Below, piece by piece: positions 19,466 to 23,894 of a stretch of 64,000 bases of DNA (position 1 is its first letter; each line of letters opens with the position of its first letter). This DNA is from an uncultured Pseudomonadota bacterium (GTDB lineage: Bacteria > Myxococcota_A > UBA796 > SXON01): assembly GCA_903844155.1 (NCBI GenBank), contig CAIMSU010000117.1, positions 62,001 to 126,000 on the forward strand. The letters are read 5' to 3'. The translations under genes and the position numbers were made by a program. Below the pieces are notes generated by a model that was not told where the DNA came from, ran no database searches, and worked only from the letters and a program-made list of their open reading frames with translations.

Positions 19466-20374
19466 ATGTTAGCCCCGTGGGTGCCTGACTCCCACCCGGC
19501 GACGTTCCCGCGAGGGGTCTGGATCGCCCTGATCGCCGTCTGGATAATCTGGGGTTCTACCTACCTCGCCATCCGGATCTCGCTGGAGACGTTGCCGCCG
19601 TTCGGCATGGCGGCGCTGCGGCTCTCGATCGCCGGCCTCGTCATCATCGGATTCTCGGCGGTGCGTGGGGTGAAGCTGCCCACGGCCGCTGAGTGGCGCG
19701 GCTGCCTGATCGTCGGGGCGTTGATGTTCGTCGGCGGCAACGGCAGCGTGTGTTTTGCCGAGCAGACCGTCTCTTCCGGCCTCGTCGCCATCCTCGTCTC
19801 GACCGTACCCCTGTGGACCGCGTTGATGGGGATGTGGTGGGGCGCTCGACCGGGCGGACGGCAATGGGCGGGGATCGCGCTTGGTTTTGCGGGGGTCATC
19901 GTCCTGAACCTCGGACGCGGCCTCTCGGGCAGCCCCGTCGCGGCGGTGGCCCTGCTGCTCGGCTCGCCGGGTTGGGCGTTGGGCTCGGTGCTCGGGCGGC
20001 GGATGCAGATGCCAAAGGGGACGATGGCGTCGGGCGCGCAGATGCTGTGTGGGGGCCTCTCCTTGGCGGTCGTGGCCTGGGCGGCGGGCGAGCACATCGA
20101 CGCCGTCTCGACGCGAAGCGTGCTCGCCTTCGTCTACCTGACGGTCTTCGGCTCGCTGATCGGGTTCACGGCCTACGGCTACCTGCTCACGCACGCGACC
20201 CTGCCCGTCGCGACCTCCTACGCGTACGTAAACCCGCTGGTGGCCGTGCTCCTCGGGGTCGTGTTGGGTGGAGAAGGGCTGGAGTGGGAGACGCTCGGCG
20301 GGCTCGTCCTGCTCGTCCTCGCGGTGCTGTTGGTGACGTGGCCGCAGCAGGCGATAGAGCGGGCGACGAGGTGA
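19466..20374 (+). CDS. EamA/DMT-family exporter (YedA-like)
   Basis: The product is 302 residues with ten predicted transmembrane helices formed by two EamA repeats. The first repeat begins [21 protein letters not shown] and includes [20 protein letters not shown], a pattern typical of YedA-like drug/metabolite transporters. The second repeat contains [15 protein letters not shown]. Such inner-membrane proteins export amino acids, amines or other metabolites; the substrate cannot be deduced. The gene follows hairpin 1 and its stop overlaps the GTG start of the thiolase gene by 4 nt, so exporter and thiolase are coupled. Confidence 0.9.
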
Positions 20375-21558
20375 CCGTGCGCGTACCCGTGATCTGCTCT
20401 CCGCTCCGCACCCCCATCGGCCGCTTCGGCGGTGGACTTCAGGAGGTTCGCGCAGACGATCTGGCCGCGCTCGTGCTCCGGACCGTCCTCGAGCGGACCG
20501 GCATCGACGCCGCGACGGTCGACGAGGTCATCCTCGGCTGCGCCAACCAGGCGGGCGAGGACAACCGGAACGTCGCGCGAATGGCCAGCCTGCTGGCTGG
20601 GTTTCCGCAGTCGGTGCCCGGCTACACCGTCAACCGGCTGTGCGCGTCGGGCCTCGAAGCGGTGAACAACGCCGCGCGAATGATCCGGGTCGGTGATGCC
20701 GATCGGGTGCTGGCCGGCGGGGTCGAGTCGATGTCGCGGGCGCCCTACGCCATGCCACGCGGTGCCGTCGCACCGAAGTTCGGCAACCTCACGATCTACG
20801 ACACCTCGCTCGGCTGGCGCTTCCCGAACCCGGCGATGGAGAAGCTTTTCCCGCTGGAACCGATGGGCGAGACGGCCGAGAACGTCGCCGAGCGCTACGG
20901 GATCTCCCGTGCGGATCAGGACGCGTTCGCGGTCGAGAGCCACCGCCGGGCGGTCGCGGCCGAGGCGATCGGGGCGTTTGACGCCGAGCGGATCCCGGTG
21001 CCACGCGGAAAGTTTGAGCCGCTGACGAAGGACGAGGGGCCGCGCCCGGACAGCTCCATCGAGGGTCTCGCGAAGCTGAAGCCGGCGTTCCGGGCGGGAG
21101 GTTCGGTGACGGCGGGGAATTCCTCGACACTGAACGACGGCGCTGCCGCCATGCTCATCGTCGACGAGGCGGCGAGCGCCGGACTGCAGCCGATCGCGCG
21201 CGTCCTGGGGTGCGCGAGCGCGGGCGTCGACCCGCGCGTGATGGGCATCGGCCCCGTGCCAGCGATCCGCAAGCTGCTCCAACGGGCGGGCCTCAGCGTC
21301 ACCGACATCGACCTGTACGAGCTGAACGAGGCGTTCGCCGCCCAGTCCCTCGCAGTGGTCAGGGAGCTTGATCTCGATCCCTCGCGCGTGAACGTGAACG
21401 GCGGCGCCATCGCCCTCGGCCACCCGCTCGGCTGCTCGGGGGCGCGCATCGTCACCACGCTGGCGTACGCGCTGCGCGCCCGCGGACTGCGCTATGGCAT
21501 CGCCAGCCTGTGCGTCGGCGTCGGGCAAGGCGTCGCGACGCTGATCGAAGCCCTCTGA
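20371..21558 (+). CDS. Thiolase, acetyl-CoA acyltransferase family (PcaF/PaaJ-like)
   Basis: From GTG 20371 (GTGA overlap with the exporter gene) the product is 395 residues, the normal thiolase length. The triad is intact: nucleophile Cys91 in [12 protein letters not shown], His351 in GHPLGCSG, and Cys381 in LCVGVGQG. The [12 protein letters not shown] box resembles 3-oxoadipyl-CoA thiolases, which fits the aromatic-type CoA ligase at 15589, but fatty-acid thiolases can look similar. It cleaves 3-ketoacyl-CoA with CoA to release acetyl-CoA or runs in reverse. Next come the enoyl-CoA hydratase fusion and the 3-hydroxyacyl-CoA dehydrogenase, in the same direction. Confidence 0.93.
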
Positions 21559-21587
21559 ACTCCGCCCCATCCAAAAGAGAGGCGTCC

Positions 21588-23009
21588 ATGCCCGCGCTCG
21601 TCCAACGCTACGACATCGACCGCATCGCGGTCCTCGTGCTCACCAACCCGCCCGTCAATGGCTACAGCCACGCGATGCACCGGGAGCTCGACGCGCACGT
21701 CGTCGACGTGCGGATGGACGAGAACATCGACTGCATCGTGATCCGCGGCGAAGGCGAGAAGTTCTTCTGCGCGGGCGCGGACATCGGGTACCTGCGCAGC
21801 CTCACCTCCGAGCAGAAGTACAGCTTCTGCCTGCACGCGAACGAGACGCTGCTACGGCTGGAGAACACGCCGAAGCTGGTGATCGCGGCGTTGAACGGCC
21901 ATTGTGTGGGGGGAGGGCTGGAGATCGCGCTCGCCTGCGACCTGCGCATTGGGCGCAGCGGCGGGACGAAGCCGGACCTCGTGGGGCTGCCGGAAGTGAC
22001 GCTCGGCGTGCTCCCGGGCACCGGCGGGACGCAGCGGCTGACCCGGATCCTCGGACGGGCGAAGGCGCTGGAATTCATGATCGAAGGCCGGAAGGTGACG
22101 GTCGATGAGGCGGTCGGCCTGGGCCTCGTCCACGCGACCCTGCCTGCAGAGGGGTGGTGGCCGGCGCTGCTTGACTACGCGCGCCGGTTCTGCCGACCGA
22201 ACGCCTCCTCGACCGCGATCGGGCTCATCAAGCGCGCCGTGCTCGGTGGAGCAGATCTGCCCCTGGAAAGCGGGCTTGCGCTCGAACGCGAGCTCCAGCA
22301 ACGCCTGTTCGCCGGTCCCGACGCGCGCGAGGGCCTGCTCGCCTACGCCGAAAAGCGCGCCCCCGTGTTCGCCCCGCCGACGTCGTCCCCGTCGACGTCC
22401 CCGATGCCCTCGCCCTCCCAGAGTCCCTCGCCCGCCCGGTCTTCGCCACCCGCCCCGACCCCGTCGCCAGCCCCCTCCCCTCGCCCCACGCCGCCGCCCG
22501 AAACCGTCCCCGCCGAGACGACCGCCCCGCACCCCAAGGCGAAGCTCCGCGCCGCCGCGATCGAGCCCGAAGGCCCACAGTTGCCCGCCCGGCCCGGCCC
22601 CGTCGCCCGCATCGCGCCCAACCCCCGCGACGAGCTCGCCAGCTTCGGCGACGAGCACACCAACCCCGGCACCCGTCGCCCCGGAGCCGCCGGTCCCACC
22701 GAAGAAGGCTTCTTCGAAGGGGCTTTTGACCCCGATGGTCCCCGTCCGACCTCCGGCCCCGGCAAGGTCGGAAACCAGCTTGGCAACGTGAAGGACGCCG
22801 TCTTGAACCTGGTGCCAAGAGCGCTCGTCGAACGCTGGCTGTTGGTGCCCTTGCGCCGCGACGGGGACGTCCTCACCGTCGCCATGGTCGACCCCTCCAA
22901 GGTCGCGGGCATCCGCGAAGTCGAGGAGGACACCGGCCTCACCGTCAAGGCGCTGAAGTGCCCGGACTTCGAGATCTCCGCCGCCATCATTCGGTATTAC
23001 CGAGCCTGA
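21588..23009 (+). CDS. Enoyl-CoA hydratase fused to a Pro-rich linker and a T2SSE_N/MshEN-like domain
   Basis: The product is 473 residues from ATG 21588. Residues 1-260 are a complete enoyl-CoA hydratase/isomerase: oxyanion-hole region GEKFFCAGADIGYL, GGGLEIALACD with the first catalytic Glu, LPEVTLGVLPGTGGTQRL with the second, and the usual terminal AYAEKRAPVF. A linker of about 135 residues rich in Pro, Ser, Ala and Thr follows. Residues about 400-473 (LVPRALVERWLLVPLRRDGD onward, including VAMVDPSKVAGIREVEEDTG and a final IRYY) match the second half of the N-terminal domain of type II secretion/type IV pilus ATPases (T2SSE_N), some of which bind c-di-GMP. The frame is continuous with no stop or start at the junction. 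I know of no such fusion. It hydrates 2-enoyl-CoA; the added domain may regulate or place the enzyme. Confidence 0.85.
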   Translation: MPALVQRYDIDRIAVLVLTNPPVNGYSHAMHRELDAHVVDVRMDENIDCIVIRGEGEKFFCAGADIGYLRSLTSEQKYSFCLHANETLLRLENTPKLVIAALNGHCVGGGLEIALACDLRIGRSGGTKPDLVGLPEVTLGVLPGTGGTQRLTRILGRAKALEFMIEGRKVTVDEAVGLGLVHATLPAEGWWPALLDYARRFCRPNASSTAIGLIKRAVLGGADLPLESGLALERELQQRLFAGPDAREGLLAYAEKRAPVFAPPTSSPSTSPMPSPSQSPSPARSSPPAPTPSPAPSPRPTPPPETVPAETTAPHPKAKLRAAAIEPEGPQLPARPGPVARIAPNPRDELASFGDEHTNPGTRRPGAAGPTEEGFFEGAFDPDGPRPTSGPGKVGNQLGNVKDAVLNLVPRALVERWLLVPLRRDGDVLTVAMVDPSKVAGIREVEEDTGLTVKALKCPDFEISAAIIRYYRA

Positions 23010-23045: not shown

Positions 23046-23894
23046 ATGCAGTTCGAACACATCGGCATCATCGGCGCTGGCGCCATGGGCCACGGCATCG
23101 CCCACGTCTCCGCCGCCGCAGGCTTCCGCGTGACCCTCTACGACGTCGATGAGGTGCGGGTCGCAGCGGGCATCCGCAAGATCGAGGCCGCGCTCGACAA
23201 GGGCGTCGAGAAGGGCAAGGTCACGCCCGACGCCAGAACCGCAGCCCTCAGGCTCCTCGATTCGACCACCGAGCTCGCCGATCTCGCCGACGCCGACTTG
23301 CTGATCGAAGCCATCCCCGAGCGCCTGGAGATGAAGCAGTCGTTGTTCCACCAGCTTGACACGATCTGCTCGCCCTCCGCCGTCTTCGCGACGAACACCA
23401 GCTCCCTGTCCATCGCGCGAATCGCCTCGTCCGTCGCCGATCCTTCGCGGGTCATCGGCACGCACTTCTTCAACCCCGTCCACCTGATGACGCTGCTCGA
23501 AGTCGTCGTGCACGCCGGCACCCGCGAGGACGTCCGCGAGAACATCCTCAAGTACGGCGCGCGCATCGGCAAGGAGTGCATCGTCGTGAACGACGCGCCC
23601 GGCTTCGCGACGAGCCGGCTCGGCGTGTGCCTCGGCATGGAGGCGATCCGCATGGTCGAACAGGGCGTTGCAAGCCCCGAAGACATCGACAAAGCCATGT
23701 GTCTGGGCTATCGCCACCCCGTCGGCCCGCTGCGCCTGACGGACATGGTGGGCCTTGACGTGCGCCTGGCGATCGGGGAATACCTGGCGCGCGAGCTCAA
23801 CAACCCCGCGTTCGAGCCGCCGGCGTTGATGCGGAAGATGGTGGCGGAGGGGAAGCTGGGGCAGAAGACGGGGGCGGGCTTTTATAGCTGGTAG
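23046..23894 (+). CDS. 3-hydroxyacyl-CoA (3-hydroxybutyryl-CoA) dehydrogenase
   Basis: The product is 282 residues, the length of single-domain-pair 3-hydroxybutyryl-CoA dehydrogenases (Hbd/PaaH type). The NAD-binding Rossmann motif is IGIIGAGAMGHGIA at the N-terminus. The catalytic His is in THFFNPVHLM (about residue 140) with its partner Glu near 151. The C-terminal domain begins VVNDAPGFATSRLG and includes YRHPVGPLRLTDMVGLD. It oxidises 3-hydroxyacyl-CoA to 3-ketoacyl-CoA with NAD. It follows the hydratase fusion by 36 nt and completes the beta-oxidation set. The convergent neighbour on the minus strand ends 1 nt after its stop. Confidence 0.95.
   Translation: MQFEHIGIIGAGAMGHGIAHVSAAAGFRVTLYDVDEVRVAAGIRKIEAALDKGVEKGKVTPDARTAALRLLDSTTELADLADADLLIEAIPERLEMKQSLFHQLDTICSPSAVFATNTSSLSIARIASSVADPSRVIGTHFFNPVHLMTLLEVVVHAGTREDVRENILKYGARIGKECIVVNDAPGFATSRLGVCLGMEAIRMVEQGVASPEDIDKAMCLGYRHPVGPLRLTDMVGLDVRLAIGEYLARELNNPAFEPPALMRKMVAEGKLGQKTGAGFYSW

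Follow-up and report, generated by a model that had tools for sequence, protein, structure and literature searches.

Can a domain of secretion and pilus motors become part of an enzyme of fatty-acid oxidation, and what would it do there? The question is raised by a gene at 21588-23009 of the window, as we call the whole 64,000-nucleotide stretch of DNA that was analysed, in which an enoyl-CoA hydratase is followed in the same frame by a domain of the MshEN_C (ND1) type. ND1/MshEN_C is known from secretion and pilus motors and from c-di-GMP-linked regulators. No report of an ECH-MshEN fusion was found in the literature searched, which does not in itself prove its absence from the literature; the domains are known ones, and the architecture that joins them is new and clade-specific.

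The fused gene and its operon

The gene is a single open frame of 473 amino acids with no internal stops, introduced by a ribosome-binding-like AGAGAGG which together with the ATG start at 21588 occupies 21571..21590. The fused gene with all its parts and the two enzyme genes flanking it lie on the forward strand. An acetyl-CoA acyltransferase (thiolase) gene at 20371..21558, recognised by Thiolase_N/Thiolase_C, ends 29 bases before the fusion, and a 3-hydroxyacyl-CoA dehydrogenase gene of the 3-hydroxybutyryl-CoA dehydrogenase type at 23046..23894 (3HCDH_N and 3HCDH), with a ribosome-binding-like GAAGGA of its own, begins after a gap of 36 bases. Both adjoin the fusion in relatives too, the order thiolase, ECH/MshEN and hydroxyacyl-CoA dehydrogenase being kept as an operon. 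In FadB/FadJ the hydratase and 3-hydroxyacyl-CoA dehydrogenase activities are joined, with a thiolase partner near, and they likewise stand together in the operon of the window; unlike in FadB/FadJ, hydratase and dehydrogenase are separate genes here and the hydratase bears ND1 in the dehydrogenase's stead. Upstream of the thiolase, the stop of a DMT-type transporter gene (19466-20374) overlaps the GTG with which the thiolase probably starts (GTGA, 20371-20374), an arrangement suggestive of translational coupling between the transporter and the beta-oxidation operon.

Domain architecture of the fused protein

Residues 1-261 (21588..22370) form the enoyl-CoA hydratase (crotonase) domain. Pfam ECH_1 matched residues 13-261 over profile positions 6-248 of 251 (E 5.8e-45, 154 bits, cut-off 27), and all 17 fused homologues match it as well. 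The catalytic glutamates Glu112 (GGGLE-IALACD, codon 21921..21923) and Glu136 (GLPE-VTLG, codon 21993..21995), which we take to be the equivalents of E144 and E164 of rat mitochondrial ECH, are invariant in the alignment of the 17 fused homologues, as are CAGAD and GGG of the oxyanion-hole region, and these features are lost in one genome only (G008, discussed below). Judged from these residues, the crotonase active site of the window protein is intact. The hydratase part is presumably hexameric, as is expected of the crotonase family.

Residues 262-390 (22371..22757) constitute a flexible Pro/Ala/Ser-rich linker, as indicated by composition (27% Pro over residues 262-~390), by a confidence below 50 over most of residues 263-392 in the full-length model, and by fast evolution, its length in relatives ranging from about 50 to 200 residues. 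It contains a short acidic-aromatic motif, TEEGFFEGAFD (22698..22730), which is echoed in most relatives (GFEDFADF, GSVFEDG). Such a motif stands shortly before ND1 in the otherwise aromatic-poor linkers of L013, L016-L022, L025, L026, L028 and L142, in the variants TEEGFFEGAFD, EFKGFEDFADF, REFEGFEDF and GSVFEDG/GSVFDDG, and is absent in L012 and L029. From its composition and recurrence, it is possibly a second docking motif.

The MshEN_C/ND1 domain occupies residues ~391-473 (22758..23006) and ends in YYRA directly before the stop; Pfam, predicted fold, the PilB profile and the alignment agree on it. Pfam MshEN (PF05157, the former T2SSE_N) matched residues 402-472 over profile positions 14-85 of 90 with 48.2 bits (cut-off 23.1, E 1.1e-12), rising to 51.1 bits for the C-terminal part alone, and NCBIfam weakly matched the same part with the PilB N-terminal region. 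When the predicted structure of ND1 (pLDDT 77.9), which has the alpha/beta fold of MshEN_C, was searched with foldseek, the solved N-domains of MshE, PilB, PilF and XpsE were retrieved (best 5htl, E 2e-5, TMq 0.72; prob 1.00 and TMq 0.64-0.74 for 5htl, 3jc8 and 7lkm), together with weak matches to 2bh1 and 4pht, the EpsE and GspE chains of EpsL/GspL co-crystals (prob 0.97-0.98, E 0.14-0.18). ECH and MshEN were the only domains found by Pfam, with neither an N2 domain nor an ATPase domain with Walker A (GPTGSGK) among them. Homology begins at the first MshEN_C element, where INLxxFEIDxEVLKLIP of PilB faces IDLxRTRIxxxVLNLL of the relatives, and what precedes it is linker; on this alignment only the MshEN_C half, as the structural literature defines it, is present, and MshEN_N is missing. 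The full-length model (pLDDT 65.7, built on a 17-row alignment) is too low in confidence for the packing of ND1 on the hydratase to be read from it.

A sequence-only reading of this gene had described a complete hydratase with both catalytic glutamates, some 135 Pro/Ser-rich residues and a T2SSE_N-like domain of the GspE/PilB/MshE kind; all three parts were recovered, the HMM and structure matches of the last both being significant.

Origin of the terminal domain

By sequence, the nearest relatives of the fused ND1 are PilB N-domains (3jc8, 5tsg, 6f8l), including that of M. xanthus PilB, which consist of MshEN_N and MshEN_C and are its probable source. In contrast to them, the fused ND1 lacks MshEN_N and the c-di-GMP motifs, has lost much of the PilB-conserved surface and forms a clade of its own. 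In a tree of 83 columns, from which GspE-type paralogues were excluded because the wider tree containing them was unusable owing to long branches, the fused ND1 formed one clade split from the PilB ND1 of the class with support 100/99, and on this tree it has a single origin against PilB.

A proposed tethered docking arm on the hydratase

MshEN_C corresponds to ND1 in PilB. For EpsE, ND1 alone has been crystallised together with EpsL, and the interface with PilM has been put on ND1 (PMC8389850), so that PilB, by inference, grips PilM by ND1. The N1 domain of GspE, which a flexible linker connects to the ATPase hexamer, binds GspL in a 1:1 complex (PMC6882859). The N1 domain of GspE/EpsE bound to GspL/EpsL (PDB 2BH1, 4PHT) has the same fold, lacks MshEN_N and is flexibly tethered to a larger oligomer, as here; it differs in that ND1 is N-terminal on an ATPase, whereas it is C-terminal on a metabolic enzyme in the fused protein, and the fold match between the two is the weak one given above.

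We favour, with a probability of roughly 0.55, the reading that ND1 is a tethered protein-docking arm on a beta-oxidation hydratase. An MshEN_C/ND1 would have been captured once from a PilB/GspE-type motor and put on a crotonase. Starting from a fusion that exists, is conserved and selected, consists of identified domains, lacks the c-di-GMP half and lies in an operon, we infer that each subunit of the expected crotonase hexamer would bear ND1 on a long disordered tether, and that ND1 would dock, by analogy with GspE on GspL, and so hold the hydratase at a partner.

As to that partner, residues invariant in the PilB of the class (SNI.A.DD.KF after DP; VPSINL..FEI; alignment positions Glu22 and His27) vary or have been exchanged in the fused ND1, which keeps the residues of the fold while several PilB-invariant ones are lost. 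Because the fused ND1 lies outside the PilB clade and has lost much of the conserved PilB surface, its partner has probably changed, and this is the simplest reading. With the PilB-type surface remodelled, PilM would be a less likely partner than an enzyme of the same operon (thiolase or dehydrogenase, making up a tethered complex for beta-oxidation) or some other protein specific to the family. Against docking within the operon stands the finding that neither thiolase nor dehydrogenase carries an obvious docking tail. A profile search found one fused copy and one PilB in each genome of the window's family (f1) and no third ND1 carrier, so that other fusions give no hint of a partner in common. 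We put forward only tentatively the more elaborate picture in which six tethered ND1 domains on a crotonase hexamer assemble the beta-oxidation enzymes or anchor at a pilus or secretion platform, the protein persisting in one lineage, once catalysis was lost, as a pure scaffold.

Selection on the fused protein and decay in one genome

Alternatively, ND1 could be passive, serving folding, solubility or oligomerisation, or be a slowly decaying relic of a fusion without a specific partner. A disordered linker of free length would agree with this, as would the decay of the hydratase itself in one lineage, but ND1 is under purifying selection across many pairs of sequences, has been kept wherever the family's gene is whole and has a fixed C-terminal end, 19 of 19 recovered C-termini reading YR[ALS] and then stop. 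Pairwise dN/dS, obtained by simple Nei-Gojobori counting with synonymous sites partly saturated, was 0.03-0.16 for the hydratase, 0.04-0.34 for ND1 and 0.22-0.90 for the linker, whose amino acid identity between relatives is 36-72% with many length changes. By this measure ND1 is under purifying selection and the linker evolves fast, the whole having the look of one translated, selected polypeptide with an unstructured tether. We regard a passive or relic ND1 as unlikely.

The decayed copy is that of G008 (L142/L184), in which the operon is intact, with a thiolase 72% and a dehydrogenase 68% identical to those of the window. Its hydratase part is 38% identical to that of the window over the aligned stretch and has lost the oxyanion-hole loop, Glu136 and most C-terminal helices, and Glu112 has become Asp. 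ND1 (35% identical to that of the window) is still attached, the position in the operon is kept, and all parts have a coding-type codon composition with G+C of 0.91-0.94 at third positions. The protein may have kept a role as a scaffold without catalysis, or it may be disappearing, and one genome cannot decide between the two. The pattern is consistent with a non-catalytic role of the fused protein; the strong divergence of this ND1 makes a general relaxation of the gene possible there, which speaks against the docking arm. A link between this decay and a loss of PilM, which had seemed to be missing from G008, was considered and dropped, since contig C12 ends at 108728, just past PilO, which is an assembly gap.

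Possible docking at a pilus or secretion platform

A further alternative is that ND1 still docks on the platform of a type IV pilus or type II secretion system, at actin-fold proteins of the PilM/GspL kind, which would bring beta-oxidation to the pole or to the base of the pilus or make the protein a competitor of PilB. In the motors it is ND1 that binds GspL/PilM (PMC8389850, PMC6882859), and six tethered ND1 arms on a crotonase hexamer would mimic the geometry of GspE/PilB. Of the 22 family genomes, 20 have PilM above the cut-off, and in one of the two others (G008) the gap is a contig end. PilB is found in nearly all of them. However, the stretches SNI.A.DD.KF and VPSINL..FEI are not conserved in the fused ND1, and other families of the class have PilB and PilM without the fusion; we regard docking on such a platform as quite unlikely. 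The earlier suggestion of a tether to a pole or machine may still hold: the retained half is indeed the one that contacts GspL/PilM, but conserved surface residues of the PilB type are gone from it.

Genomes of f3, a neighbouring family in the same order (e.g. G023, G032 and G042), matched PilM only weakly and gave no match to a PilB-like ND1, so that, in contrast to the window's family, they may be without a type IVa pilus.

Lack of the c-di-GMP-binding half

MshEN_N binds c-di-GMP, and this half by itself does so at least as well as the complete domain (PMC5013675). MshEN_N, a four-helix part with two tandem 24-residue RLGxx... motifs, precedes ND1 in none of the fused proteins. A relaxed form of the motif gave no match in the fused proteins but was present in the PilB/GspE controls L001, L002 and L031 of the same family; the pattern overlooked some PilB copies in which the motif is visible by eye and so is a conservative control. 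It had been proposed that the domain might link beta-oxidation to this second messenger, ND1 sensing c-di-GMP and regulating the hydratase, and the domain does fall in Pfam MshEN, named after c-di-GMP receptors. Such control is highly improbable because MshEN_N and both motifs are absent from the window protein and all its fused relatives, while Asp108, the sole contact contributed by MshEN_C, is dispensable; the proposal is rejected. c-di-GMP binding should not be deduced from a Pfam MshEN match by itself.

The reuse of MshEN-type domains beyond ATPases has precedents in the c-di-GMP receptor fusions with REC, HD-GYP, CheA, CheX, cyclase, Ser/Thr kinase and glycosyltransferase domains (PMC5013675). 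Unlike the fusion in the window, these are defined by MshEN_N and c-di-GMP and are regulatory, and no enzyme of central metabolism is listed among them. In the window's own genome, the domain profile matched ten places, namely the fusion, eight secretion/pilus ATPase genes and L007, which has no ATPase domain. Read by eye, L007 consists of an MshEN-type N-domain and then a receiver-like (response-regulator) domain, and L005 of the same genome is a GspE-type ATPase with a receiver-like domain at its end.

Distribution of the fusion

The in-frame fusion was found in 16 whole genes of f1, a family of uncultured myxobacteria, and in the G008 copy with its degenerate hydratase, and every f1 genome whose gene is whole has it. 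The fused copy of G007 (L047) is truncated within the domain, where its contig stops. Contig ends carry the two halves in G010 and G020, and for G016 and G019 the hydratase was recovered but not the end. Each of the 17 fused proteins in the alignment has a match to both of the Pfam families. No fusion was found outside f1 among the sampled genomes of the class or phylum. In a search with a profile of the fused domain, fused copies scored E 1e-33 or better (G008, 3.6e-20), and matches from the rest of the class scored 3e-21 or weaker and lay in long frames, those inspected being PilB; a 280-residue contig-end piece (L143) is the start of a PilB. None of the 133 non-f1 genomes in the phylum sample passed 1e-22. 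Across a collection of 84,980 species, relatives with at least 72% hydratase identity that reach far enough are fused, and those with about 62% or less are unfused.

L041 and L048 are public MAG contigs titled 'Bifidobacterium breve' (CALQBK020000018.1) and 'Klebsiella pneumoniae' (CAMBIK010000026.1); they carry the operon of the window's lineage at high identity, and their record titles look wrong.

That two genes were joined artificially, by chimeric assembly or faulty annotation, as the draft state of the window's genome (375 contigs) might suggest, is practically untenable and is refuted, since the same junction recurs at 16 other whole or near-whole loci in different genomes, with in-frame linkers of differing length and both parts under selection. 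Read-through or two separate genes are likewise rejected, all whole copies being a single in-frame ORF with its stop directly after the conserved end. The independent assemblies of relatives thus confirm the sequence-only reading in treating the gene as a true single-chain fusion.

Significance

A conserved and selected ND1 on an enzyme of fatty-acid oxidation would show that the docking half of the MshEN domain is separable from the messenger-binding half and can be reused. ND1 also gives a direct route to a new partner, and through it either to an assembly for bacterial beta-oxidation or to a physical coupling of fat metabolism with surface motility.
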